Shown here in pieces: positions 8,101 to 49,300 of a stretch of 64,000 bases of DNA. The DNA is from Haematobia irritans (Eukaryota > Arthropoda > Insecta > Diptera > Muscidae). The stretch is taken from assembly GCF_050003625.1 (NCBI RefSeq), contig NC_134397.1, positions 278,622,070 to 278,686,069 of the forward strand, read 5' to 3'. Within the stretch, counting starts at the first letter, position 1, and every line of letters begins with the position of its first letter. A program made the translations under genes and the position numbers. The notes under the pieces were generated by a model. That model was not told the DNA's origin and made no database searches. It worked only from the letters and a program-made list of their open reading frames with translations.

Positions 8101-10367
8101 TTTTTTGTATAATCGTCATTTTATGGTGGTCGGACCAACTACATTTTTTTGACAAATGCATTGCACATACAATATGTCTGTATAATATATATGTATGTAC
8201 GTAAAAGTATATCAGGTATTAAATAACTTAAAAGATAACAAAGTCATCAGAGGGCAGAATACCACACACATCGGTACGACATAACACTATCATATTGAAT
8301 GTACACTAAAATTCTCGTTCATTGAACTTGGGCATGATCTTGAAATGTTATTTAAATAAACGGAAATATTGTAATTCATTCATTAATTTTATACATTTCA
8401 CTGTAGATTCCTAGTACTTTCAGAGAGTGGATACAAAATCCGAATTGTAATTGTCCCAATTAACATTTTAATTAAATAAAAAATTATATATAATTGAAAA
8501 TTTTATAATTAGTTTCATAAAATTTTGAAATTATAATAGAATGTACAAATTCATATAAAATAACAAGACAATTATTTCAGCTAAAGGAAAATAATTATAA
8601 ATATTTAAACATTAAATAATTGAAAGCCTTAATAAAAAAAAAACATAAATTGTGTTTTGCGACCCAAATCAGTTAAAGTTTTAATGGAACCAATTAAAAA
8701 ACTAATTGAAAGATCCGAAGAAATCAAATAAATTTTTAATCAAGTATATTTATTTACTTTTAATTAATTCTGTGATTGATACTATCATTTTCGTGATTTA
8801 ACCAATTTCAATTAAAAATATAATTGCATCAATTAATGTCGTAATTGAATAAAAAAAAATGTTTTCTGTTTATAACCAATTGTACTTTGGTCAATAAAAA
8901 ATATTTCTAAAAAATACGATCTAAAGCTTGAGAACTTCTTTTCTATTTGATACAAGAGTGATCGAATAAAATCAAATTATTTAAAACATCGAAAAAGTAT
9001 TCGGAAAAGTGCGAACGTCGTCCACAAAAAGTATGACATTTTCCATAAGTTAGGTTAGGTTAGGTTATGTGGCAGCCCGATGTATCAGGCTCACTTAGAC
9101 TATTCAGTAGAGGTGTGCACGTGACACGAAATTGTTGACGGCTACGGCGTCAGTGTGCGTGAGCGTGATTAACCAATCAAATGTCGTGCGTGAGCGTGAG
9201 TCACGAAAATAATATAGTCGTGAGTGTGCGTGAGTAACGAATTTCGGAAAAACACGCTCACGAAAATAATCCCGCTTACGAACATAAAATGCCTACGAGT
9301 TGAATTCATATATAATGGTAGTGACATCCTAGGTGTTAACGTGTTTTATAACGCTCTCGATTTTAATATACTCATGTTTTTAGTCAGGTTCTATAGGTAA
9401 AATACTCATAAAATTATTCGTGAGTCACGAGGTTTTTCGTAAGTTACGACATTTTTCGTGAGTCACGATATTTTTCGTGAGTCACGACATTTAAAAGATT
9501 TTCGTGCGTGAGTACAAATTTTCTTTTCGTGAACGTGCGTGAATAATATTTCTCCGTCGTGAGTGTGCGTGAGCAAAATATTACTCACGTGCACACCTCT
9601 ACTATTCAGTTCATTGTGATACCACATTGGTGAACTTCTCTCTTATCACTATGTGCTGCCCGATTCCAAGTTAAGCTCAATTTTTATAGCCGAGTCCGAA
9701 ACGTCGTTCCACATTGCAGTGAAACTACTTAGAGAAGCTTTGAAACCCTCAGAAATGTCACCAGCATTACTGAGGTGGGATAATCCACCGCTGAAAAACT
9801 TTTTGGTGTTCGGTCGTAGCAGGAATCGAACCCACGACCTTGTGTATGCAAGGCGGGCATGCTAACCATTGCACCACGGTGGCTCCATAAAAAGCACAAA
9901 CTAGTTTCGTAGAATGTGTGCAATGTATTCATTAAAAGCACGAAAGTTTTTATTAAAATATGAGAAAATCATTTCGGCAAAAGATAGCAATATTTCATTC
10001 TTTTTTTGAAAAATAAGTAAAGTTGACTTAAATAAAGAAATCACTTGTACTTACATCCTGTAATCAATGTGTTCATGGGCACTTGTGCCGACATGCGACC
10101 GATTATTAAAGATTTCTCTCCAGTTTCAGGATGAAAGGCGGAATCATACAAATATTTAGCTCTCCACAGATCTTCGACATTTTTCACTTCTGGTACAGGC
10201 TTGCCAGCACGGTAGTCGGTCACAATACGTTTTGCTCGCTCCAGTTCATCATTGGTGGCCAATAAATTAAGGGGATTTGTCAAGAGGAAGAAATGTTTAG
10301 CACGATTCATATAAGTGCTTTGATCATACTTGGGCTGATCGATATCAACTTTGGCTATGTCCGACAT
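2126..10367 (-). CDS. Sfxn1-3: Sideroflexin (SFXN1/3 type), 7 coding exons
   Basis: Sideroflexins are multi-pass carriers of the mitochondrial inner membrane; SFXN1/3 import serine for one-carbon metabolism. Coding exons, 5' to 3' on the minus strand, are 10367-10055, 6500-6383, 5406-5331, 5111-5026, 4967-4840, 2436-2279 and 2212-2126. Every junction is GT/AG and the joined frame is open for 322 codons including the stop, giving 321 aa, close to the usual length of about 320. Visible family marks are [18 protein letters not shown] with [10 protein letters not shown] in exon 1, FWQWVNQ and [11 protein letters not shown] in exon 2, [11 protein letters not shown] in exon 4, [13 protein letters not shown] and [10 protein letters not shown] in exon 6, and the C-terminal FNKGL. 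The FLKRFP and APIQ region favours SFXN1/3 over SFXN2. The ATG at 10367 starts [11 protein letters not shown]. Intron 1 is 3.55 kb and full of transposons. No coding lesion is seen. Confidence 0.95.
3110..3625 (+). repeat. 'catatatgtttata' interspersed repeat (MITE-like)
   Basis: The family starts with '...tcaaaaa.atcgcttctgta', contains several near-palindromic 'aaacatattatgttt'-type blocks, and ends near 'gttttttcgtccgtgtg'. Other copies or parts lie at about 4430-4680, 11403-11600, 20935-21115, 23885-24235, 27180-27420, 47568-47835 (inverted) and 58849-59125 (inverted). No coding capacity; exact ends uncertain. Confidence 0.6.
3850..4382 (+). repeat. 5'-truncated copy of the 'cccagcaaaaaaa' MITE
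   Basis: It shares 'atgttctttttggatccgga' and the terminal 'tttttttgctggg' with the fuller element at 57229-57604. Its left inverted end is missing. A third, more diverged partial copy lies at about 22650-22840. Confidence 0.55.
6772..6975. repeat. AATTAATTTTTTAATTG-rich palindromic repeat
   Basis: This segment is built from repeated, mostly self-complementary 'caattaattttttaattg'-like blocks with a conserved 'gatagtatcaatcacag'-like core. Related copies are at about 8646-8880 (inverted relative to this one), 23640-23855 and 54541-54830. It is non-coding and probably a MITE, though no clean target duplication was found. Confidence 0.5.
7540..7812. mobile_element. piggyBac-like MITE with TTAA target duplication
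   Basis: The 273-bp element is flanked on both sides by TTAA (7536-7539 and 7813-7816). Its ends are inverted: CCCTTA at the left and TAAGGG at the right. An internal 'agtgggtcaaaattgccc' is matched in inverted form by 'gggcaaatttgacccact'. TTAA duplication plus CCCT termini is the piggyBac-superfamily signature. No open frame is present, so it is non-autonomous. It sits in sideroflexin intron 1. Confidence 0.75.
8646..8880. repeat. Inverted copy of the AATTAATTTTTTAATTG repeat
   Basis: The reverse complement matches the repeat at 6772-6975, including the 'gtgattgatactatcat' core. The two may be arms of one larger insertion, but I could not confirm this. Confidence 0.45.
9108..9601. mobile_element. 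hAT-type MITE nested in the SINE
   Basis: The 494-bp insertion has inverted ends TAGAGGTGTGCACGTGA and TCACGTGCACACCTCTA. It is flanked by an exact 8-bp direct repeat CTATTCAG (9100-9107 and 9602-9609). Eight-bp duplication with TAGAGGTGTGCAC-like ends is typical of the hAT superfamily. The interior is a dense series of 'cgtgagtcacga' palindromes with no reading frame. Confidence 0.85.
9812..9886 (-). repeat. tRNA-like head of the SINE (pol III promoter boxes)
   Basis: The reverse complement reads as a tRNA relative with both internal pol III boxes. It lacks a convincing complementary acceptor stem and runs directly into the SINE body, so it is a SINE promoter and not a functional tRNA gene. 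Confidence 0.7.
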
Positions 10368-11667
10368 TGTGATTTTTGTTTTTGTGGCGGACTAGTGGAA
10401 CCGTAAATTAATCTGTAGGAAAGATAAAGCATAATAAACGTTTTTAAAAGAAAGGCATAGATTTTTACAAAAACATATAAAAGATTATATAATACGAAAC
10501 ACCCCGTTATATGTTTTTTTTTTTTTTTTTTTTTTTAATTTTCACATTGAACTTAAAACATACTTTTACCCACAAAATAATCGAAGTGGGAGTTGAGAAA
10601 TTGGACAACGTCATACTAAATGTTGCATCTACGGCGCTCGATATATGCAGGATAGTTTTGTTTTTAATTTGTAAAATTCTTCATGAAAAACTCACAAATG
10701 ATGTTCATTTTTAAGTAATTAATAATGAGCAACATTTGCTCGATTTTCTATCCAATTTTCTGACAGTAATACTGCTCATTTTCATATGAGCAGAACTTTG
10801 ATTGTCGGTATTTGCTTAATGGCATAGGCGTAGCTAAAGGGGTTTTATGGGTTTCCATCTCCCCCTACCAAATACCATGCAGTATTTATTCAAACCATGA
10901 TTATATATCATTGAATTAATATTCTGGTTTCTTTCCATATATAAGAATTTATTTTTTCTCTTTTTGAGGTATCTTCACAATGAGCACACATTGTAGCTTT
11001 TATCCCCTACGAAAATGTTGCTAGCTACGCCAATGTTTAATAGATAATTGTGACAAATAAAAATAAAAATTCAAAATAAAATTTTTTATACCAAAAATTT
11101 TGAATTTTTCAATTTGCTTTAAATTTATGACACAAAAGTATCGAAATAAATTGTCCTCATAATTCTTGCGGACCGTATCATATTTCGAAGCATACATCGA
11201 TCACTTCCAGATTTTCTCTATTTTAAATTTCCATCTTGTTGAACTTGTTGTTCAACAAGTGAGAAATTTAATTCAATTTGACTGACAATCAAAGTTTCAA
11301 TATAGCGACTGACATTTTTGTTTTTATAATACTAAAACTACCTTACTAAATCTGCCTTGAGTAATATCTTCTTATTGAACAAAAATATCATAAATGACAA
11401 GTACACCCTCAAAAAAAAAAAAAAAAATCGCCGCTGTAATATACTCGTATACTCCCAAACATATTCTGCTTCAAGCATATATATAATTTGACAATGTATT
11501 CAAACAAAAAAATTTTTGCACTGTGCAAACATATTATGTTTCACCCTAAGCATATCTTTTTTAAAGGTCCCAAATGGCCGATAAGCAATCATGAACGTTT
11601 ACTCAGCAACCTATACTTTTATTTGTTCTAATTACACTTGCAGTTTTATATATCTTTCGTTATCTAT
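10335..11667 (+). repeat. Copy 1 of a 1333-bp tandem duplication
   Basis: Sequence from 10335 recurs in direct orientation from 11668. The unit starts inside sideroflexin coding exon 1 (codons 1-11) and carries the 5' leader, the upstream acceptor, a poly-T run, intergenic DNA and a 'catatatg' family fragment. A two-base 'ct' microhomology is at the junction. The copies differ at only a handful of positions. Copy 1 keeps the empty target sites of the two elements inserted in copy 2 (10849-10857 and 10904-10905). Confidence 0.9.
10368..10412 (-). promoter_or_regulatory. Sideroflexin 5' UTR end and upstream splice acceptor
   Basis: Reading the minus strand, a pyrimidine-rich 'ctttcctacag' ends at 10413. 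It is followed by 45 bases of leader and then the ATG at 10367. This looks like a real acceptor, implying a non-coding first exon further upstream (higher coordinates). The site is copied in the duplication near 11700-11750. Confidence 0.5.
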
Positions 11668-11747
11668 CTGATCGATATCAACTTTGGCTATGTCCGACAT
11701 TGTGATTTTTGTTTTTGTGGCGGACTAGTGGAACCGTAAATTAATCT
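11668..11747 (-). pseudogene. Duplicated 5' fragment of sideroflexin exon 1
   Basis: The minus strand repeats the upstream acceptor (ctttcctacag), the leader and the first codons [11 protein letters not shown]. It then leaves homology and cannot continue the protein. If the real first exon lies upstream of 21 kb, this decoy acceptor and ATG sit between it and the functional exon. Confidence 0.7.
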
Positions 11748-12439
11748 GTAGGAAAGATAAAGAATAATAAACGTTTTTAAAAGAAAGGCATAGATTTTTA
11801 CAAAAACATATAAAAGATTATATAATACGAAACACCCCGTTATATGTTTTTTTTTTTTTTTTTTTTTTTAATTTTCACATTGAACTTAAAACATACTTTT
11901 ACCCACAAAATAATCGAAGTGGGAGTTGAGAAATTGGACAACGTCATACTAAATGTTGCATCTACGGCGCTCGATATATGCAGGATAGTTTTGTTTTTAA
12001 TTTGTAAAATTCTTCATGAAAAACTCACAAATGATGTTCATTTTTAAGTAATTAATAATGAGCAACATTTGCTCGTTTTTCTATCCAATTTTCTGACAGT
12101 AATACTGCTCATTTTCATATGAGCAGAACTTTGATTGTCGGTATTTGCTTAATGGCATAGGCGTAGCTAAAGGGGTTTTATGGGTTTCCAATGTGTGTGA
12201 AGATAAATTTTAAAATTTAACTTTAACAGAGCAATTTTAACAGGTTAACAGAGCTATGTTAACGGTTAACAGAGCTCTTTTATGTAAAAAAATTGGAAAT
12301 TTGAATTTAATTTTAGATTAAAACTTAAAAAATGGCGTTGTATGTGCATTAAATTTAAAAAACAACTCAATAATAATAGAAAACACAATGAGTAATAACT
12401 AACTTAAAGGAATATTGGGAGTATATATCTCAGAACTGT

Positions 12440-15400
12440 TAAAGAATGGCTGGTTGCAAAAATAAGTGGTAATAAATTGATTTGTTTAAAGTATGAAATT
12501 GGAGATAGATAGATTGATAAAACTGGTACCACATATAGCTCTCGTCGAGTGCTATCAGAAAGTACAAGAGTTATATTCCAAATTCATTTCAGATGCGAGA
12601 AATTTTGAAATTTTAGAAATCTGGAATGGCCCACTGTGCTGGAATGGAAAAAGATAGGTTAATGAAACTGGTACCACATATAGCCCTCGTCGAGAGCTAT
12701 CAGAATATATACGTGTTGTATTCCGAATCCATTTCAGATTCGAGCAATTTTGAATGTAAAGTTAAATGATAAAAATCTAAAGTGGCCCACTGTGCTGGAT
12801 TACAAATAGATAGGTAAATGAAACTGGTACCACATATAGGCCTTTTTGGGCGCTATTAGAATCTACAAGAGTTATATTCCGAATCCATTTCAGATTCGAG
12901 AAATTTTGACTCTAAAATTAAATTTTAAAAATCTAAAATGGCCCACTGTACTGGAATGGAAAAAGATAGGTCAATGAAACTGGTACCACATATAGCCCTC
13001 GTCGAGAGCTATCAGAATATATAAGCATTATAATTCAAGTCCATTTCAGATTCGAGAAATTTTGATTCAAAAGAAAAATTTTATAAATATGAAATGGCCC
13101 ACTGTGCTGGAATGGAGAATGATAGGCCACTGAAACTGGTTTCACATATAGCCCTCGTCGAGAGCTATTAGAATGTATAATCATTACATTCCAAATTCAT
13201 TTCAAATTCAAGAAATTTTGAAATTAAAATTAAATTTAAATTTCAAAAATATAAACTGGCCCACTGTGCTGGACACGAAAAAGATAGGTCAACCAAACTT
13301 CTACCACAAATAGCCCTTGTCGAGTGCTATAAGAATCTATAGGCATTATATTCCGAATCCATTTCAGATTCGAGAAATTTTGAAATTAAAGTTAAATTTT
13401 AAAAGTCTGAAATGGCCCACTGTGCTGTGGAATGGGGGAAAGATAGGTCAATGAAACTGGTACCACATATAGCCTTCGTCGAGAGGTATCAGAATATATA
13501 ATTGCTATATTCTAAATTTATTTCGAAATATTGTCAAAATTAGAAATAAAATAGACATATTTTCCTTTTGAAATTTACCTCTGTGACTGCGTAGCAAAAT
13601 GTGTTAAACCTCGCTGTTATTAATATAACATAACATACTTTACTCTGAGAGCCGCTCTCTTGATTCGACTCTCAACAGATATTGTGAAAATAACATAGCA
13701 GTGTCTCACTATTAACTCAAGTATTTTTGAAATTAAATTTTAAAATAGAAAAACTAAATTTTTTCAAAATCGTAAAAAGATAGGCGAATGAAATTAACGT
13801 CAATAATAGCTCTTATCTAGACCTATCAGAATATATAAGCATCATATTACGAATCCATTTCAGATTCGAGAAATTTTGAATGTAAAGTAAAATTGTAAAA
13901 ATCTCAAATGACCCACTGTGGTGGACACGAACAAGATAGGTTAATGAAACTAGTACCATATATAACCCTCGTCGAGAGCTATTAGAATATATAAGCGTTA
14001 TATTCCAAATCCATTTCAGATTCGAGAAATTTTGAAATTAAAGTTAAATTTTAAAAATCTCAATTGGCCCACTGTGCTGGAATGGGGAAAGATAGGTTAA
14101 TGAAACTGGTACCACATATAGCCCTCGTCGAGAGCTATTAGAGTATATAGGGGTTATATTCCAAATCCATTTCAGATTCGAGAAAATTTGAAATTAAAGT
14201 TAAATTTTAAAAATATGAAATGGCCCACTGTGCTGGAATGGAGAAAGATAGGTCAATGAAACTGGTACCACATATAGCCCTCGTTGAGAGCTATCAGAAT
14301 TTATAAGCACTATATTCCAAATCCATTTCAAATTCGAGAAATTTTGACTCTAAAATTAAATTTTAAAAATCTAAAATGGCCCACTGTGCTGGAATGGGAA
14401 AAGATAGGTTAATGAAACTGGTAGTACAAACAGCCCTCGTCGAGAGCTATCAGAATTTATAAGCATTATATTCCAAATCCATTTCAGATTCGAAAAATTT
14501 TGAAATTAAAGTTAAATTTTAAAAATCCAAAATGGCCCACTGTGCTGGAATGGAGAAAGATAGGTCAATGAAACTGGTACCACATATAGCCCTCGTTGAG
14601 AGCTATCAGAATATATAAGCATTATATTCCGAATAAATTTCAGATTGGAGAAAGCGTGAAATTAAAGTTAACTTTTAAAAATTTAAATGGCCCACTGTGC
14701 TGGACACGAAAAAGATAGGTTCATAAAACTGGTACCACTTATAGCCCTCGTCGGGAGCTATCATAATATGTAAGCATTATATTCCGAATCCATTTCAGAT
14801 TTGAGAAATTTTGAATGTAAAATTATATGATAAAAATTTAAAGTGGCCCACTGGCCGGACTGCAAATAGATAGGTAACTGAAACTGGTAGCACATATAGT
14901 CCTCATTGAGTACTATCAAAATATATAATTGTAATATTCTAAATTTATTTCGAAATATTGCGAAAATTAATAAAAAAAATAGACATATTTTCCTTTTAAA
15001 ATATACCTCTGTGACTGTTTAGCAAAATATGTTATCCGTCGCTATTATTAAAATAACATAACATAACATACTTTACTATGAGACTCGCTCTCTTGTTTTG
15101 TTTACAGATTCGACTCTTAACAGATGTTGTAAAAATAACATAGCAGTGTCTCCCCATTACCTCATGTATTTTTGAAGTTAAATTTTAAAATAGAAAAATT
15201 CAATTTTTTCAAAATCGTAAAAAGATAGGCGAATGAAATTAACGTCAATAATAGTTCTTATCTAGATCTATCAGAATATGTAAGCAGTATATTCCGAATC
15301 CATTTGAGATTGGAGAAATTGTGAATATAGAGTTAAATTTTAAAAATCTCAAATGACCCACTGTGGTGGACACGAACAATATAGGTTAATGAAACTAGTA

Positions 15401-16260
15401 CCATATATAACCCTCGTCGAGAGCTATTAGAATATATAAGCATTATATTCCAAATCCATTTCAGATTCGAGAAATTTTGAAATTAAAGTTAAATTTTAAA
15501 AATCTCAAATGGCCCACTGTGTTGGAATGGGGAAAGATAGGTTAATGAAACTGGTAGTACAAATAGCCCTCATCGAGAGCTATCAGAATTTATAAGCATT
15601 ATATTCCGAATCCATTTCAGATTGGAGAAATTTTGAATGTAAAGTTAAATTTTAAAAATCTCAAATGACCCACTGTGGTGGACACGAAAAAGATAGGTTA
15701 ATGAAACTAGTACCATATATAACCCTCGTCGAGAGCTATCTGAATATGTAAGCATTACATTCCAAATCCATTTCAGATTCGAGAAATTTTGAAATTACAT
15801 TTTGAAATTAAAGTTAAATTTTAAAAATCTCAAATGGCCCACTGTGTTGGAATGGGGAAAGATAGGTTAATGAAACTGGTAGTACAAATAGCCCTCGTCG
15901 AGAGCTATCAGAATTTATAAGCATTATATTCCGAATCCATTTCAGATTGGAGAAATTTTGAATGTAAAGTTAAATTTTAAAAATCTCAAATGACCCACTG
16001 TGGTGGACACGAAAAAGATAGGTTAATGAAACTAGTACCATATAAAACCCTCATCGAGAGCTATCTGAATATGTAAGCATTACATTCCAAATCCATTTCA
16101 GATTCGAGAAATTTTGAAATTAAAGTTAAATTTTAACAATATGAAATGGCCCCCTGTGCTGGAATGGAGAAAGATAGGTCAATGAAACTGGTACCACATA
16201 TAGCCCTCGTTGAGAGCTATCAGAATATATATTTGCTATATTCTAAATTTATTTCGAAAT
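12440..16260 (+). repeat. About 156-bp tandem array, left arm of the foldback element
   Basis: Successive 'gatagg...aatgaaactggtacc' starts at 12653, 12809, 12965, 13121 and 13283 give a period near 156 bp. Each unit has 'gccctcgtcgagagctat', 'tccatttcagattcgag' and 'tggcccactgtgctgg'. A distinct segment containing 'acctctgtgactg' interrupts the array at about 13500-13740, 14930-15190 and 16235-16318, giving a higher-order period of about 1.3-1.4 kb. Confidence 0.85.
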
Positions 16261-16319
16261 ATTGTCAAAATTAGAAATAAATTACGACATATTTTCCTTT
16301 TGAAATTTACCTCTGTGAC

Positions 16320-17295
16320 TGAATTTTGCTGAAACTTTATTTCTATACAGAAAATTTTGCCAAAATTTTATTTCTATAGAAAATTTTGTCAACATTTTAT
16401 TTCTATAGACAATTTTGCCGAAACTTTATTTCTATATAGAAAATTTTGCCAAAATCATATTTCTATAGCAAAATTTTATTTCTATATAAAAATTTTGTCA
16501 AAATTTTATTTCTATAGACAATTTTGCCGAAACTTTAATTTTATTTAGAAAATTTTGCCAAAATTATATTATATCTATAAAAAATTTTGTCAAAATTTAC
16601 TTCCGTAGGAAATTTGTTCTTTTTTTCTATAGAAAATTTTGTGAAAAAAAAATTTTAATAGAAAATTTTGTACAAATATTTTATTTCTATAGAAAAATTT
16701 TCAAGATTTCTATAAAAAATTTCGTAAAAATTTTATTTCTATAGAAAATCTTGTCAAGATTTTATTTCCATTAAAAAAAAAATTGTGAACATTGTATGTC
16801 TATACAAAATGTTTGCAAAATTTTATTTGTTTAGACATTTTTTGCAAAATTTTATGTCTATAGAAATTTTTTTCAAAATTTTATTTCTATAGACAATTTT
16901 GTCAAAATTTTTTTCCATAGAAAAATTTTGTCAAAATTTTTTTCCATAGAAAAATATTGTCAACATTTTTTTCTAAAGAAAAATTTGTCAAAATTTCTAT
17001 AAAAAATTTCGTAAAAATTTTATTTCTATAGAAAATCTTGTCAAGTTTTTATTTCCATTGAAACAAAATTTGTGAACATTTTATGTCTATAGAAAATGTT
17101 TGCAAAATTTTATTTCTATAGAAAATTTTGTCAACATTTTATTTTTATAGACAATCTTGTCAAAATTTTATTTCTATAGAAAATTTTGTCAAAATTTTAT
17201 TTCTATAGGAAATTTTGTCAAAATTCTATTTCAATGGAAATCGATGTCAAAATTTTATTTCTATAATTTTGCCGAAACTTTTTTTCTATATAGAA
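16320..17295 (+). repeat. 29-bp minisatellite forming the foldback loop
   Basis: A degenerate tandem array of 'atttctatagaaaattttgt'-type units of about 28-29 bp. It contains the palindrome TTTCTATAGAAA. The same minisatellite family occurs at 41157-41720 and, inverted, at 48388-49070. The 63-aa frame here is only a translation of the repeat. Confidence 0.8.
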
Positions 17296-19130
17296 AATTT
17301 TGAATCTGAAATGGATTTGGAATATAACGCCTATATACTCTAATAGCTCTCGACGAGGGCTATATGTGGTACCAGTTTCATTAACCTATCTTTCCCCATT
17401 CCAGCACAGTGGGCCAATTGAGATTTTTAAAATTTAACTTTAATTTCAAAATTTCTCGAATCTGAAATGGATTTGGAATATAACCCCTATATACTCTAAT
17501 AGCTCTCGACGAGGGCTATATGTGGTACCAGTTTCATTAACCTATCTTTCCCCATTCCAGCACAGTGGGCCAATTGAGATTTTTAAAATTTAACTTTAAT
17601 TTCAAAATTTCTCGAATCTGAAATGGATTTGGAATATAACGCTTATATATTCTAATAGCTCTCGACGAGGGTTATATATGGTACTAGTTTCATTAACCTA
17701 TCTTGTTCGTGTCCACCACAGTGGGTCATTTGAGATTTTTACAATTTTACTTTACATTCAAAATTTCTCGAATCTGAAATGGATTCGTAATATGATGCTT
17801 ATATATTCTGATAGGTCTAGATAAGAGCTATTATTGACGTTAATTTCATTCGCCTATCTTTTTACGATTTTGAAAAAATTTAGTTTTTCTATTTTAAAAT
17901 TTAATTTCAAAAATACTTGAGTTAATAGTGAGACACTGCTATGTTATTTTCACAATATCTGTTGAGAGTCGAATCAAGAGAGCGGCTCTCAGAGTAAAGT
18001 ATGTTATGTTATATTAATAACAGCGAGGTTTAACACATTTTGCTACGCAGTCACAGAGGTAAATTTCAAAAGGAAAATATGTCTATTTTATTTCTAATTT
18101 TGACAATATAAATTTAGAGTATAGCAATTATATATTCTGATACCTCTCGACGAAGGCTATATGTGGTACCAGTTTCATTGACCTATCTTTCCCCCATTCC
18201 ACAGCACAGTGGGCCATTTCAGACTTTTAAAATTTAACTTTAATTTCAAAATTTCTCGAATCTGAAATGGATTCGGAATATAATGCCTATAGATTCTTAT
18301 AGCACTCGACAAGGGCTATTTGTGGTAGAAGTTTGGTTGACCTATCTTTTTCGTGTCCAGCACAGTGGGCCAGTTTATATTTTTGAAATTTAAATTTAAT
18401 TTTAATTTCAAAATTTCTTGAATTTGAAATGAATTTGGAATGTAATGATTATACATTCTAATAGCTCTCGACGAGGGCTATATGTGAAACCAGTTTCAGT
18501 GGCCTATCATTCTCCATTCCAGCACAGTGGGCCATTTCATATTTATAAAATTTTTCTTTTGAATCAAAATTTCTCGAATCTGAAATGGACTTGAATTATA
18601 ATGCTTATATATTCTGATAGCTCTCGACGAGGGCTATATGTGGTACCAGTTTCATTGACCTATCTTTTTCCATTCCAGTACAGTGGGCCATTTTAGATTT
18701 TTAAAATTTAATTTTAGAGTCAAAATTTCTCGAATCTGAAATGGATTCGGAATATAACTCTTGTAGATTCTAATAGCGCCCAAAAAGGCCTATATGTGGT
18801 ACCAGTTTCATTTACCTATCTATTTGTAATCCAGCACAGTGGGCCACTTTAGATTTTTATCATTTAACTTTACATTCAAAATTGCTCGAATCTGAAATGG
18901 ATTCGGAATACAACACGTATATATTCTGATAGCTCTCGACGAGGGCTATATGTGGTACCAGTTTCATTAACCTATCTTTTTCCATTCCAGCACAGTGGGC
19001 CATTCCAGATTTCTAAAATTTCAAAATTTCTCGCATCTGAAATGAATTTGGAATATAACTCTTGTACTTTCTGATAGCACTCGACGAGAGCTATATGTGG
19101 TACCAGTTTTATCAACCTATCTATCTCCAA
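17296..19130 (-). repeat. About 156-bp tandem array, right arm of the foldback element
   Basis: This is the inverted counterpart of the left array. It carries one copy of the 'acctctgtgactg' spacer segment (about 17870-18115). It is shorter than the left arm, which has extra units on its inner side. Confidence 0.85.
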
Positions 19131-19495
19131 TTTCATACTTTAAACAAATCAATTTATTACCACTTATTTTTGCAACCAGCCATTCTTTAACAGTTCTGAG
19201 ATATATACTCCCAATATTCCTTTAAGTTAGTTATTACTCATTGTGTTTTCTATTATTATTGAGTTGTTTTTTAATTTTAATGCACATACAACGCCATTTT
19301 TTAAGTTTTAATCTAAAATTAAATTCAAATTTCCAATTTTTTTACATAAAAGAGCTCTGTTAACCGTTAACATAGCTCTGTTAACCTGTTAAAATTGCTC
19401 TGTTAAAGTTAAATTTTAAAATTTATCTTCACACACATGGGTTTCCATCTCCCCCTACCAAATACCATGCAGTATTTATTCAAACCATGATTATA

Positions 19496-20428
19496 AAGGG
19501 TGATTTGTTAAGAGCTTGATAACTTTTTTAAAAAAAAAAACGCATAAAATTTGCAAAATCTCATCGGTTCTTTATTTGAAACGTTAGATTGGTCCATGAC
19601 ATTTACTTTTTGAAGATAATTTCATTTAAATGTTGACCGCGGCTGCGTCTTAGGTGGTCCATTCGGAAAGTCCAATTTTGGGCAACTTTTTCGAGCATTT
19701 CGGCCGGAATAGCCCGAATTTCTTCGGAAATGTTGTCTTCCAAAGCTGGAATAGTTGCTGGCTTATTTCTGTAGACTTTAGACTTGACGTAGCCCCACAA
19801 AAAATAGTCTAAAGGCGTCAAATCGCATGATCTTGGTGGCCAACTTACCGGTCCATTTCTTGAGATGAATTGTTCTCCGAAGTTTTCCCTCAAAATGGCC
19901 ATAGAATCGCGAGCTGTGTGGCATGTAGCGCCATCTTGTTGAAACCACATGTCAACCAAGTTCAGTTCTTCCATTTTTGGCAACAAAAAGTTTGTTAGCA
20001 TCGAACGATAGCGATCGCCATTCACCGTAACGTTGCGTCCAACAGCATCTTTGAAAAAATACGGTCCAATGATTCCACCAGCGTACAAACCACACCAAAC
20101 AGTGCATTTTTCGGGATGCATGGGCAGTTCTTGAACGGCTTCTGGTTGCTCTTCACTCCAAATGCGGCAATTTTGCTTATTTACGTAGCCATTCAACCAG
20201 AAATGAGCCTCATCGCTGAACAAAATTTGTCGATAAAAAAGCGGATTTTCTGCCACTGATTTTGGTAATAAAATTCAATGATTTGCAAGCGTTGCTCGTT
20301 AGTAAGTCTATTCATGATGAAATGTCAAAGCATACTGAGCATCTTTCTCTTTGACACCATGTCTGAAATCCCACGTGATCTGTCAAATACTAATGCATGA
20401 AAATCCTAACCTCAAAAGAATCACCCTT
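19496..20428 (-). mobile_element. Tc1/mariner-superfamily element, internally deleted
   Basis: The 933-bp element is flanked by TA (19494-19495 and 20429-20430) and ends in the inverted repeat AAGGGTGATT...AATCACCCTT. Duplication copy 1 has the uninterrupted site (10904-10905). It encodes a broken transposase on the minus strand. It sits in copy 2 only, so it arrived after the duplication. Confidence 0.9.
19603..20313 (-). pseudogene. Truncated mariner-type transposase
   Basis: The minus strand begins with MNRLTNEQRLQIIEFYYQNQ near 20313. It then jumps frame into AENPLFYRQILFSDEAHFW, so the DNA-binding helix-turn-helix region and linker have been deleted. The catalytic part is intact in an open frame of about 217 codons: SDEAHF (first Asp), QQDGATCHTA (second Asp) and RSCDLTPLDYFLWG (third Asp). 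I count 36 residues between the second and third Asp. It cannot make a working enzyme as it stands, because the N-terminal domain is gone. The 217-codon frame opens with GTG rather than ATG. Confidence 0.85.
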
Positions 20429-21193
20429 TATATCATTGAATTAATATTCTGGTTTCTTTCCATATATAAGAATTTATTTTTTCTCTTTTTGAGGTATCTT
20501 CACAATGAGCACACATTGTAGCTTTTATCCCCTACGAAAATGTTGCTAGCTACGCCAATGTTTAATAGATAATTGTGACAAATAAAAATAAAAATTCAAA
20601 ATAAAATTTTTTATACCAAAAATTTTGAATTTTTCAATTTGCTTTAAATTTATGACACAAAAGTATCGAAATAAATTGTCCTCATAATTCTTGCGGACCG
20701 TATCATATTTCGAAGCATACATCGATCACTTCCAGATTTTCTCTATTTTAAATTTCCATCTTGTTGAACTTGTTGTTCAACAAGTGAGAAATTTAATTCA
20801 ATTTGACTGACAATCATAGTTTCAATATAGCGGCTGACATTTTTGTTTTTATAATACTAAAACTACCTTACTAAATCTGCCTTGAGTAATATCTTCTTAT
20901 TGAACAAAAATATCATAAATGACAAGTACACCCTCAAAAAAAAAAAAAAAATCGCCGCTGTAATATACTCGTATACTCCCAAACATATTCTGCTTCAAGC
21001 ATATATATAATTTGAGAATGTATTCAAACAAAAAAATTTTTGCACTGTGCAAACATATTATGTTTCACCCTAAGCATATCTTTTTTAAAGGTCCCAAATG
21101 GCCGATAAGCAATCATGAACGTTTACTCAGCAACCTATACTTTTATTTGTTCTAATTACACTTGCAGTTTTATATATCTTTCGTTATCTATCT

Positions 21194-25487: not shown

Positions 25488-26525
<1,038 letters not shown>

Positions 26526-40335: not shown

Positions 40336-43300
40336 TCAGTAGTCACCTGAAATTGAAAAAAAATAAAATGATTGTAATTAGTTTAATATTTAAATTAATT
40401 ATTTTTTGTTTGTCCATGCAGAATTAAGCCTTATGTAGTTGTAACTGTTCCCCATATACTAGGTAGTATTTGCTTATTAAAAATGTAACTCCTATGTTCA
40501 GTTTTCAAGCTGAAAACCAGCTTGTTTTCACGGTTCCCTTTTTTTTAATTAATTAATTTAGAAATATAAAATTATTTGCAATCAATTCATTGGATCTTTT
40601 CCATCCATTATTTGGCAAGACTCGATCAAAATATAATCGTCTTCATAAATATGTTTGCACTTTTAATTTAGTGTTTTAGTGAAAAAATTTAACTGAATTG
40701 AATTCATATATGGAATGATTTTATTGAACTTTTTTCATTAATTTAGACAAATCGACTCCGGCCCAACCAAAATTTTAAAACACTTTATATTTTTGTAACT
40801 AACAATATATTTAAGAAATTTGAATTAATTGAAATCTTCAATCGATAAATGACTGTAATTTGATATAGCTGATAATACATATCCTTGAGCGCATAGAAGC
40901 CTCCACATTCATTCGGTTTGACTTAAATGTGTATCGTAGGCTTACTTTGGGGCTACAAAATCAAATTAGTACGTTTTTATAGATATCGGCCATTTATACC
41001 CAGTGCCACACTTTGGGTGTATAAATTTCCCTTATATTGTAAATGCGTCGAATTTTGTTTTAATGATTTAGTTTGCATCAACAAGGGAAAGTTACTACTA
41101 CTTCAATCGACTTTAACGAAATGGACTAACACGAAAATTAAAAAATATTGAATATATAGAAAATTTTGTCAAAATTTTAGTTCCATAGAAAAATTTGTCA
41201 AAATTTTGCCAAAGTTTTATTTCCATAGAAAATTTTGTCAAAATTTTGCCAAAGTTTTATTTCCATAGAAAATTTTGTCAAAATTTTAATTCTATGGAAA
41301 CCTAAAAATTTTAAATTTTATTCCAATAGAAAATTTTGGCAAAAATTTTGTTACAAAAGTTCCATAGAAAAATTTGCCAAAGTTTTATTTCCATAGAAAA
41401 TTTTGTCAAAATTTTACCAAAGTTTTATTTCCATAGAAAATTTTGTCAAAATTTTAATTCTATGGAAACCTAAAAATTTTAAATTTTATTCCAATAGAAA
41501 ATTTTGGCAAAAATTTTGTTACCAAATGTTTTTTCTGTAGAAAGGTTTGTCAAATTTTTTTCTATAGAAATTTTGTCAAAAATTTATTTCTATAGAAAAT
41601 TACAAAATTTTATTCTAAAAAAAATAAATAAATAGAAATTTAGTTCTAAAAAATTTAAATTTTATTCCTATAGAAAATTTTGTAAATTTTTTTTCTATAG
41701 AAAATTTTGTCAAAAATGTATTTAGTTTTGTTTTGTTATTGTTGGTTTCTACTTCAATAATTTTGTTGTTTTTGATTTCAGCTTAAAACCATGCATTGAC
41801 TAAACTACAAGTGTAGCTTAAGCAACAGTGGAAAAGAATCATCAACCAATTATCAGAATAAATTCAGGCAGTTAATAAACCCAAAATGAACCTTCCGAAA
41901 AAAGGTTTATGACAGTCGGCCTTTGCCGAAATAAATTTGTACAAACATATCTCTTTTCCTTTGCCACTGTCAAATCATCTAATATGAACTAAAATAAAGT
42001 TGAATTGGCTTTAGTGAAATAGAGAGTTCACTTGTTTTTGAGTGTACGTTTCATGAATTCGTAAATTAGAACATGGGAAAATGTATATCTGGATTTAACA
42101 CGGGGAACAATTCCAGAATTGTCGCGCAAATCAGACTAACGCACATATTTCATTGTATTCGGGAAGCAAATTTCATCCATCAAACTTAGTGTATCCGGTC
42201 ACATCTTATGTTTAGTAATTATACCCTGCGCCACACTGTGGAACAGGGTATTATAAGTTAGTGTATATATATATTTGCAACACCCAGAAGGAGACGAGAT
42301 AGACACATGGTGTCTTTGCCAAAAATGCTCAGGGTGGGCTCCTGAGTCGATATAGCCATGTCCGTCTGTCCGTGAACACATTTTTGTAATCAAAGTCTAG
42401 GTCGCAGTTTTAGTCCAATCGACAAATTTGGCACAAGTATGTGTTTTGGCTCAGAATAGAACCCTATTGATTTTGGAAGAAATTGGTTCAGATTTAGATA
42501 TACCTCCAATATATATATTTCGCCCGATATGGACTTATATGGCCCCAGAAGCCAGAGTTTTACCCTAATTTGCTTAAAATTTTGCACAAGAAGAACAATT
42601 AGTACTATAGTCAAGTGTGCCAAATTTTATTGAAATCGGTTCAGATTTAGATATAGCTCCCATATTTATCTTTCGCCCGATATGGACTAATACTGTCCCA
42701 GAAGCCAGTGTTTTACCCCAATTTGGTTGAAATTTTGCACTAGGAGCACAATTAGAAGTGTAGTCAAGTGTGCTAAATTTTATTGAAATCGTTCGCCCGA
42801 TTTACAATCATATGACCACAGTGGCCAATCTTTTACTCCGATATAATTGAAATTTTGCACAGGGAGTAGAATTAGCATTGTAGCTATGCGTGCCAAATTT
42901 GGCTGAAATCGGTTCAGATTTAGATATAGTCCCATATATATGTTTTTCCGATTTCGACAAAAATGGTGAAAATACCAACATTTTCCTTGTAAAATCGCCA
43001 CTGCTTAGTCGAAAAGTTGTAAAAATGACTCGAATTTTCCTAAACTTCTAATACATATATATCGAGCGATAAATCATAAATAAACTCTTGCGAAGTTTCC
43101 TTAAAATTGCTTCAGATTTAAATGTTTTCCATATTTTGTGTTCCACCCTAGTGAATTAGCCAACTTAAATTTTGAGTCTATAGATTTTGTAAAAGTCTAT
43201 CAAATTCTGTCCAAATCGAGTGATTTGGACATATATAGCCCCCAACACATTTGACGGATGTGATATGGTATCGAAAATTTAGATCTACAATATAATATAG

Positions 43301-46300: not shown

Positions 46301-49300
46301 AAGTTAAAATCGGTCGAAAGATATATATGGGAGCTATATCTAGATCTGAATAGATTTTGACCATATTTGGCACATACAATAGTATCGTTAAAAGTACCGC
46401 TTGTGCAAAAATTGAAGTAAGTCAGGGTAAAACTCTGGCTTTTGAGACCATATAAGTCCAAATCGGGCGAAAGATATATATGTGAGCTATATCTAAATCT
46501 GAACCGATTTTAACAAAATTTGACACACTTAATGATACTATTAAACGTACCCCTTGTGCAAAATTTGAAGCAAATCACGGCAAAACTTTGGCCTCTGTGG
46601 TCATATGAGTCTAAATCGGACGAAATATATATATGGGAGCTATATCTAAATCTGAACCGATTTGGCTGATATTTTGCAAGATTTTCGAGATTTATAAAAT
46701 ATTTGGATGTACGGTATTTCAAGAAAATCGGTTGATAAACACGCTAACTATGATCAAATCGGGGATAAATATATATGGCAGCTATATCTAAATCTGAACC
46801 GATTTTTTCCAAAACCAATAGCGATTGTCTTCGTCCCAAGAAACGGCCCTGTGCCAAAATTGAGGACGATCGGACTTAAATTGCGAGCTGTACTTTGTGC
46901 ACAAAATTACATATACAGACAGACGGACGGACAGACAGACAGACGGACATCGCTAAATCGACTCAGAATTTAATTCTAAGCCGATCGGTATACTAAAAGA
47001 AGGGTCTATGACCACTATTTCTTGGCGTTACATACAAATGCACAAACTTATTATACCCTGTACCACAGTAGTGGTGAAGGGTATAAAAATTAAATTTATA
47101 AAATCGTATAATTTCTTCTACATTGTTTGTATTACAGAAAAAGGTGCTAATAACTAAAAAACTTCGTGGAAGTGAAAAAGATGTGAGGGAAAATGCAATT
47201 AGCCAGAAAAGATTGTTTTTTGAGTTAGTCTTTATGAAATTGTTTTTACGTCATGGAAAAGAATAAACGTTTATCACAAAAAGTATATACTTTTCTTCCA
47301 AATACACTTCCTTTCAACGGAAAGCAAATGAGAAACGAACTTTGTTTGTCTAAAATTTCGTTTGGGAGGAAAGAATTATTTTTTTGCGTGTAGTTTCTGT
47401 GAAAGACAACTTTTGAATAGAAAGAAGCTATTTTCTTACAGCGCAAAATGGACGCGACATTTTTATTGGAGCTACCATTTATTTGTATAGCATCTTGAAC
47501 GTTGTGTATTTTCAGATCGGAATTTTAGATCAGAATTTTACATTACAGACTCAGAGTAATCCGTACACGGACGGATAAGACTGTTTTTCATATGTTTTGG
47601 TGTAAAAATTCTACGTTTGGAACAATTTGTTAGGGCATTATTTTTAAGTGCAAGCATATAATGTTCATAAACTGGCATAACATGTTTGCGACATATATGT
47701 TAGACATTTTAATGTTTGGGCCATAACATTTTTTTAAATACAATATGTGTGGATGCAAACATTTATTAATTTAGAAATTGCCTTTAAACATATATGTGTT
47801 TAGAAAGAGAGACCGAGCGAGTATGCTACACTCATAGAAAAAAATCTGCTAAAAACAGCAGTCGATGTCTGATGTTATATTTTTGTACTTCAGGGCCTAA
47901 TGAACAACCAAAGAACCAAAAGTAGTGTTTGGTATATTTTTGCCCTGTAATATACTTACAAGTTCCTAAATACAATCAGCAAACATTTTGTTTGCTGTTA
48001 TGCCTCAATTCGATAAATATTCAGATTTTTGGTCAAATACCATAGATATTCATAAAATATTGTTTTAATTATGTTAGGATAGCTCCTAAGTTGACATTTT
48101 TATTTGTTTTAGCCAAAATAAAACATGTTTTAGTGTAATCGAGCTTAAACAAGTATATACGGCCGTAAGTTCGGCCAGGCCGAATCTTATGTACCCTCCA
48201 CCATGGATTGCGTAGGAACTTCTACTAAAGGCTGTCATCCACAATCGAATTACTTGGGTTGCGATAACACTTGCCGACGGCAAGGTATCGTAAAACTTTT
48301 TAACACTGTCTTCTAAATTGTAAGTTAGCCCATACGGGGTATATATTAAACAAAAAAAGGCCGATTAAATACGTATATAATCTAGTTTGACAAAATTTTC
48401 TATAGAAATAAAATTTTGACAAAATTTTCTATAGAAATGAAACCTTGACAAAATTTTCTATAGAAATAAAATTTTGACAAAATTTTCTATAGAAATAAAA
48501 ATTTGACAAAATTTTCTATAGAAATAAAAACTTGACAAAATTTTCTATAGAAATAAAATGTTGACAAAATTTTCTATAGCAATACAATTTTGACAAAAAT
48601 TTCTATAGAAATAAAATGTTGACAAAATTTTGCATAGAAATGAAATTTTGACAAAATTTTGTATAGAAATAAAATGTTGACAAAATTTTCTACAGAAATA
48701 AATTTTTTACAAAATTTTCTATAGAAATAAAATTTTGACAAACATTTCTATGGAAATAAACTTTTGACAAAACTTTCTATAGAAATGAAATTTTAACAAA
48801 ACTTTCTATAGTAATAAAATTTGACAAAATTTTCTATGGAAATAAAGTTTTGGTAGATTACAAAATTTTCTATAGAAATAAAATGTTGACAAAATTTTCT
48901 ACAGAAATAAATTTTTTACAAAATTTTCTATAGAAATAAAATTTTGACAAACATTTCTATGGAAATAAACTTTTGACAAAACTTTCTATAGAAATGAAAT
49001 TTTGACAAAACTTTGTATAGTAATAAAATTTGACAAAATTTTCTATGGAAATAAAGTTTTGGTAGATTATTTTTGGCGATATGGACCAATTTTTGTGTAA
49101 TAAGTCATCGGCTATATATAACTAAAGACCGATATGGACCAATTTTTACATGGCTGTTAGAGGCCATATATTGACAAAATGTACCAAATTTCAACCGTAT
49201 CGGATGACTTTTGCTCCTCCAAGAGGTTCCGGACGTCAAATCTGGGGACGGTTTATATGGGAACTATATATAATTATGGACCGATATGGACCAATTTTTG

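Follow-up and report, generated by a model that had tools for sequence, protein, structure and literature searches.

Structure of the Element and Its Insertion Site

The window analyzed here, a stretch of 64,000 nucleotides of Haematobia irritans contig NC_134397.1, carries at positions 12191-19438 a foldback element of 7248 bp with exact boundaries. Its structural class is that of the foldback type, defined by long terminal repeats in inverted orientation, within which tandem repeats lie, and by a target-site duplication. The ends, ATGTGTGTGAAG, found at 12191 (plus strand) and 19438 (minus strand), are the sole two exact matches of this sequence within the window; if two mismatches are allowed, six matches are obtained, which is not above chance. 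An exact 9-bp duplication of the target, GGGTTTCCA, borders the element on both sides, and the arms of the element are composed of 156-bp units, as identified by Tandem Repeats Finder and by a module map (Table 1). The original prediction, which had been made from the letters of the window, described a 9-bp duplication, inverted ends, and units of about 156 bp; its coordinates, the ends, and the GGGTTTCCA repeat were all confirmed.

The target site lies in a tandem duplication of ~1.33 kb. The first copy is whole; the second one, consisting of 11668-12190, 19439-19495, and 20429-21193, is split by two insertions, the foldback and ~930 bp containing a mariner-like frame. The GGGTTTCCA 9-mer occurs once in the whole tandem copy, and the match to this empty site extends over 108 bp with 100% identity across the junction. 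The tandem copies differ at 2/523, 0/57, and 3/766 positions, plus one gap (about 0.4%). Since the tandem copy with the empty site has diverged so little, the foldback insertion is recent, which had been one of the two readings offered by the original prediction; it is younger than the tandem duplication, unless conversion or mis-assembly interfered.

Inverted repeats are formed by 12188-13521/18108-19441 and 13528-14335/17302-18109. The arms are of unequal length (left, about 4.13 kb; right, about 2.14 kb), and an unpaired middle of about 3 kb remains, one third of which is the 29-bp minisatellite. Over the outer ~1985 bp, three substitutions and a single 8-bp gap separate the left arm from the right; past this point, 14 substitutions fall in the last 150 columns of the alignment, and the arms then diverge into different unit variants. 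The predicted near-identity of the arms is, thus, limited to the outer ~2 kb and does not extend to their inner parts. The modules are arranged in the order T, seven units, S, eight units, S, seven units, truncated S, and minisatellite, followed in reversed orientation by four units, S, seven units, and T. Counted within the element, spacer modules begin at 1331, 2758, and 4062. Their intervals of 1427 and 1304 bp bear out the proposed higher-order period of 1.3-1.4 kb. Stop-to-stop open reading frames of at least 100 amino acids are not listed within the element, in accordance with the earlier statement that no transposase is inside.

Table 1. Modules of the foldback element, its target duplications, and the adjoining empty site (window positions).
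Feature	Position	Strand	Basis and remarks
Uninterrupted tandem copy of target region, empty site	10335..11669	+	99.6% to 11668-12190, 100% to 19439-19495, 99.5% to 20429-21193
Left 9-bp target-site duplication GGGTTTCCA	12182..12190	.	Exact match to 19439-19447; single at empty site 10849-10857
Left terminal module T, 313 bp	12191..12503	+	Tandem Repeats Finder, module map; 21 of first 23 bp agree with second family
About three 21-22-bp TTAACAGAGC repeats within left module T	12216-12282		
Left arm, seven 156-bp units	12500..13524	+	Tandem Repeats Finder, module map
Left arm, spacer module S, copy 1	13521..13770	+	Module map
Left arm, eight 156-bp units; right-arm pairing stops near 14335	13774..14951	+	Module map, arm alignment
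Left arm, spacer module S, copy 2	14948..15215	+	Module map
Left arm, further seven units past the right arm's end	15219..16255	+	Module map
Left arm, third spacer module, truncated	16252..16321	+	Module map
29-bp minisatellite loop	16332..17302	+	Tandem Repeats Finder, module map
Right arm, four units	17294..17863	-	Module map
Right arm, spacer module S	17867..18109	-	Module map
Right arm, seven units	18129..19129	-	Module map
Right terminal module T	19126..19438	-	Tandem Repeats Finder, module map
Right 9-bp target-site duplication GGGTTTCCA	19439..19447	.	Exact match

In the neighborhood of the element, a 223-residue mariner-like transposase frame (19603-20274, minus strand) is found in the insertion at about 19496-20428 adjoining the foldback. 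Relatives of the 29-bp minisatellite of the loop occur elsewhere in the window, at 41156-41598 and 48386-49061 (the latter about 80% identical). A perfect (TA)n microsatellite of 83.5 copies is located at 25774-25940. Exons of a Na/Ca exchanger and of a sideroflexin were recognized and, together with the repeat types, would point to a fly.

The Family across the Genome

The terminus recurs throughout the 1.17-Gb assembly (181 contigs), for which a genome search had been suggested in the original prediction. A search with a 30-bp terminus pattern, allowing at most two mismatches, yielded 45 forward and 45 reverse matches, that is, 90 ends, as opposed to none with the reversed pattern as control. 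When neighboring ends within 25 kb were paired, 37 elements of 2513-16778 bp were obtained (median 8307 bp, total 311 kb), leaving 16 single ends; the longest pair, of 16.8 kb, contains a nested element. Thirty-one of the pairs were closed with sequence and tested for duplications, and 28 of these are flanked by exact 9-bp duplications. The duplicated targets reveal only an A/T tendency and no GTATTAC-like consensus. Within the sequences analyzed, a junction-spanning match to an empty site was obtained at 11 of the 21 exact-duplication insertions searched; as the match of copy C1_20 comprised only its own flank and the element, it was discarded, leaving 10 usable empty counterparts (83-100% identical; three weak, located in the 29-bp minisatellite). 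For the copy at C3:160278245-160291047, a near-identical empty target (96.7%, 122 columns; L016 104-224) lies a few hundred bases upstream, comparable to that of the window copy at a distance of 1.3 kb.

The possibility that a satellite array was rearranged in place into a palindrome, with no transposon insertion involved, is hardly credible. It would agree with arms made of tandem repeats, and foldback repeats can indeed seed satellite DNA, as argued for the element Tetris (PMC4079207). It is contradicted by the exact target duplications, by the empty site, and by the occurrence of 37 pairs that share their ends yet occupy different sites.

Twenty-two elements were taken whole, one of them including a 5000-base run of N. 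By manual count, the outer block consisting of T, seven units, and S is present at 38 of their 43 readable ends; in the interior, units and spacers vary in number. The predicted 29-bp minisatellite loop is present in the window copy, yet it is not a feature of the family, occurring in three of the 21 copies with a readable middle (the window copy, C5_70.03, and C2_53.9). Between the window and C2_53.9 (C2:53915313-53927070), the minisatellite is 99.7% identical over 982 bp. Other middles are ~450 bp long in four copies, a ~240-bp relative thereof in two, and at most 50 bases in eleven; C2_28.2 contains another sequence, and the middle of C4_138.14 is unread. A stretch of C2_28.2 had been considered as a fourth minisatellite loop; as its similarity is no higher than 82-84% along some 250 bp, it was excluded from the count.

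The terminus exists as haplotypes A and B, besides some that are apparently A/B recombinant. One B end is combined with one A or A-like end in 11 of 30 typed elements (three of the non-B ends look recombinant), and two B ends are found in five; as typing was based on the best 40 of 105 and the best 40 of 104 candidates, these proportions are not unbiased.

Stop-to-stop frames of at least 120 amino acids were sought in 27 loci, and no transposase of the family's own kind was detected. Among the 22 elements closed first, C1_20 and C2_194 contain pieces of a mariner-like transposase, and the frames of C4_138.14 consist of nothing but N. Among those closed later, C2_104 includes fragments of that mariner-like protein, C3_28 a single 123-amino acid frame with no Pfam match, and C1_134 a nested element of a second family. 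The mariner-like frame beside the window foldback belongs to the same protein as the frames inside C1_20, C2_194, and C2_104.

The window element is best filed among the foldbacks, a known type, of which it represents a new family. A description of this family was not found in the literature, which is weak evidence of novelty, most subscription papers being outside the coverage.

Similarity of the Arms

The original prediction had left the choice between a recent insertion and continuing conversion between the arms. The partner arm is the strictly closest relative for 14 of 42 arms in the region 310-1330, and for 10 of 44 arms in the first 310 bp. Since it is mostly not the closest one, most of the arm likeness can be put down to the young age of the family. 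Private variants common to both arms were encountered in 10 of 21 elements, namely 18 in C2_78, eight each in C1_20 and C5_176, five each in C2_28.2 and C3_166, and one to three in five others. Such variants require that one arm was copied onto the other, that the element arose from a single arm, or that a lineage is missing from the sample. On account of its N, C4_138.14 was excluded from both the 310-1330 comparison and the private-variant count; C2_78 is an old, diverged copy, with 73 one-arm variants besides its 18 both-arm variants; and the 152 one-arm variants of C4_138.35, the right arm of which is out of register owing to missing units, are not evidence.

Conversion, therefore, seems to occur in some copies, as is suggested by these 10 elements and by the terminus haplotypes of recombinant appearance. 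For the window copy, it is not needed. With one both-arm and two one-arm private variants, its arms match those of sister copies as well as each other, and the tandem duplication of its target is diverged by only about 0.4%. Two different arm types have been retained in eight of 22 copies, and the eight A/B elements display at most one both-arm private variant. It is thus unlikely that continuing conversion, and not the young age of the insertion, accounts for the similarity of the arms.

A Second Family and a Candidate Transposase

The member of our family at C1:134853305-134870082 (duplication ACGAATTCT) holds a nested foldback of a second family, C1:134859614-134867663, with an exact duplication of its own, ATGCTTATA. 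The arms of the second family are composed of 164-bp units, and its terminal 23 bp agree with those of our family at 21 of 23 positions. Beyond the ends, no likeness between the two families was detected (local score 22 versus a shuffle maximum of 30; unit versus unit, 18 versus 26). Exact 9-bp duplications were found in both second-family copies tested. Genome-wide, a looser end pattern gave 420 forward and 390 reverse matches, with none for the reversed control; such ends in the wider sense are far more numerous than the 90 of our family.

The loop of the nested element encodes the C-terminal part of a protein, including an Ulp1-like protease fragment; its frame ends ahead of a Cys-rich tail. 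This fragment has a 99% match at C2:218516046-218516954, within an unbroken frame of 1138 codons, which is itself located inside a 20.6-kb element of the second family (C2:218511521-218532113; exact duplication GTCGCATGT). Two pieces of the candidate transposase have 65 and 46 matches, respectively, in the genome. Three of them lie inside pairs formed by the second-family ends listed, one being the nested copy and the other two being adjacent parts of a single frame in the 20.6-kb element. The 20.6-kb member is the best candidate for a transposase source, which would also act on our family. As regards a Mutator/NOF-like transposase with the same ends, for which the original prediction had suggested a search, a candidate Mutator-like frame lies inside a related family with similar ends, and none was found in the family itself.

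Diverged relatives of the transposase-Ulp1 protein are present on C1, C2, C4, and C5 as unbroken frames of 871-1189 codons with 36-52% identity. Near the relatives on C1, C2, and at C4:58963154, no zero-mismatch ends were found among the ends listed (to C4:88134843).

In the candidate protein, an IDATG motif is followed 79 residues on by CSDWS, and CYCH and VEGYF are placed 47 and 217 residues, respectively, past the D of the latter. The motifs were read from 300 codons upstream of the matched part, with VEGYF taken from the piece of the nested copy. Judged by eye, they might represent, in this order, the D-D-CxxH-E motif of Mutator transposases. The C-terminal part matches yeast Ulp1 (PDB 1euv) with an E-value of 6.2e-5, and Pfam Peptidase_C48 just below the cut-off. 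Of four homologues, P0001 and P0004 pass Pfam C48, P0002 and P0003 show no match to it, and all four end in a Cys-rich finger. The structure prediction for the Ulp1-bearing homologue P0001 had a mean predicted local distance difference test (pLDDT) score of 34 and was not used; comparison of P0005 with solved structures gave no meaningful match. Hydra, lancelet, and plant Mutator elements have been reported to contain Ulp1 domains, and a figure legend in the same source refers to an alignment of Mutator Ulp1 and PHD domains (PMC2836005).

Proposed Mechanism of Mobilization

The element is most plausibly a non-autonomous cut-and-paste foldback DNA transposon moved by a transposase that is encoded elsewhere, for which we estimate a probability of roughly 0.8. 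The transposase would recognize the last ~23 bp of the element, excise it, and reinsert it with generation of the 9-bp duplication. Its likely source would be the related family with shared ends, including the 20.6-kb member with the unbroken Mutator-like/Ulp1-like frame. The arms would be lengthened or shortened through unequal exchange, involving either 156-bp units or the blocks delimited by spacers. At times one arm of the palindrome would be copied onto the other, and the middle would be replaceable. Both mobilization in trans and the superfamily are matters that we infer. Duplications of Mutator elements are about 8-11 bp long, and those of our family and of the second family, at 9 bp, fall within this range. 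A 9-bp duplication is called usual for Mutator-like elements (MULEs) (PMC3169594). By way of the shared ends and the duplication length, the element probably belongs to the Mutator superfamily.

Several points weigh against this reading. All 65 and 46 transposase matches were checked, and none falls inside our 37 pairs, except in the nested second-family element; nor do these pairs contain a MULE-type transposase of their own. Action in trans is, consequently, a proposal. Three elements deviate from the exact 9-bp duplication, namely C5_176 (offset 8-bp repeat), C2_104 (8 of 9 positions, with a changed terminus in addition), and C5:66747700-66750963 (no match). A Pfam search with 300 residues of the catalytic region found no domain up to an E-value of 10, MULE included, and NCBIfam gave no match. 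What was read of the candidate amounts to 300 of its 1138 codons, the C-terminal part being known from the 99%-identical relative. Ginger1 transposases, which generate 4-bp duplications, also carry Ulp1 (PMC2836005), so that the Ulp1 domain alone does not identify a Mutator element. Finally, the apparent tandem duplication with the empty site could perhaps be two haplotypes assembled side by side.

The last point touches on the question of whether the arm-loop-arm order or the adjoining empty copy is an assembly artefact. Tandem copies with and without the insertion that are 99.5-99.6% identical could be joined haplotypes. The same inverted ends are present, however, in 30 other closed copies, 27 of which have exact duplications, and the same loop is present in two other copies, so that an artefact would have only a small chance of being the explanation.

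Somewhat more probable, albeit still improbable, is the assignment to another superfamily with a similar duplication length (for example, hAT, Merlin, or P, as in the case of Galileo), the resemblance to Mutator-type foldbacks being superficial. The failure of Pfam to detect a MULE domain and the Ulp1 domain of Ginger1 would fit this view, as would the foldback-like arms of Galileo, a P superfamily element with ~140-bp tandem repeats in one copy (PMC4168063). It is opposed by the target sites: duplications of Galileo are 7 or 8 bp long with a GTATTAC consensus and those of Ginger1 4 bp, whereas ours are 9 bp long and lack such a consensus. It is also opposed by the linked frame with its putative MULE-like arrangement of the second D and CxxH, and by the Ulp1-like C-terminus, which has a counterpart in Mutator elements (PMC2836005).

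Mutator-type mobilization in trans being retained as the preferred reading, a broader proposal may be made tentatively, at somewhat less than even odds. There might be a clan of giant foldbacks for which the ~23-bp terminus is the sole mobility signal. Its families, two or more in number, would have exchangeable loops and satellite arms that are unrelated to each other (156-bp and 164-bp units), and they would be served by one Mutator-like transposase fused to an Ulp1-like (SUMO-protease) domain. If this were true, any satellite caught between two such ends would become a mobile hairpin.

Comparison with Known Foldback Elements

Foldback elements have long been known. The value of the present case lies in 37 pairs, a second family with nearly the same 23-bp ends, discrete types of arms and middles, and a candidate transposase, all in one assembly. 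The family allows tests of arm growth, of arm-to-arm copying within a palindrome, and of the sufficiency of a short terminus for mobility.

The Foldback element (FB/NOF) of Drosophila melanogaster has long inverted repeats built of tandem repeats and a 9-bp duplication, and most of its copies are noncoding. Our family resembles it in its arms, its 9-bp duplication, and its mostly noncoding copies; the likeness noted is one of description.

Tetris of D. virilis and D. americana, which has ~220-bp units and 8-10-bp duplications and for which membership in Mutator was suggested, is likewise non-autonomous; its long terminal repeats combine tandem units with a unique portion on the outside, and its middle is variable (PMC4079207). 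In a comparison by structure, our family differs in its 156-bp unit, in its higher-order blocks bounded by spacers, and in the greater length of its elements, with pairs of up to 16.8 kb. Three structurally complete copies of Tetris compare with the 37 paired elements found here, where, in addition, a candidate transposase is present in a related family.

Tm1, a Mutator/foldback element of root-knot nematodes, has composite inverted repeats of several domains and mostly 9-bp duplications (PMC3169594). It is like our elements in these respects; its coding and noncoding groups and its Mutator-type transposase would have counterparts in the two families described here and in their candidate transposase. 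It is unlike them in its ~14-bp repeat motif and its Phantom-type transposase with a FLYWCH domain; Ulp1 is not mentioned in the accessible parts of that source.

Galileo shares foldback-like arms of variable length, with direct repeats (~210 or ~140 bp) in some copies, and is set apart by its 7-8-bp duplications, its GTATTAC consensus, and its P-type transposase (PMC3573991, PMC4168063). By analogy, our family would most likely work like Tetris and Tm1, and Galileo would be a structural parallel from another superfamily.

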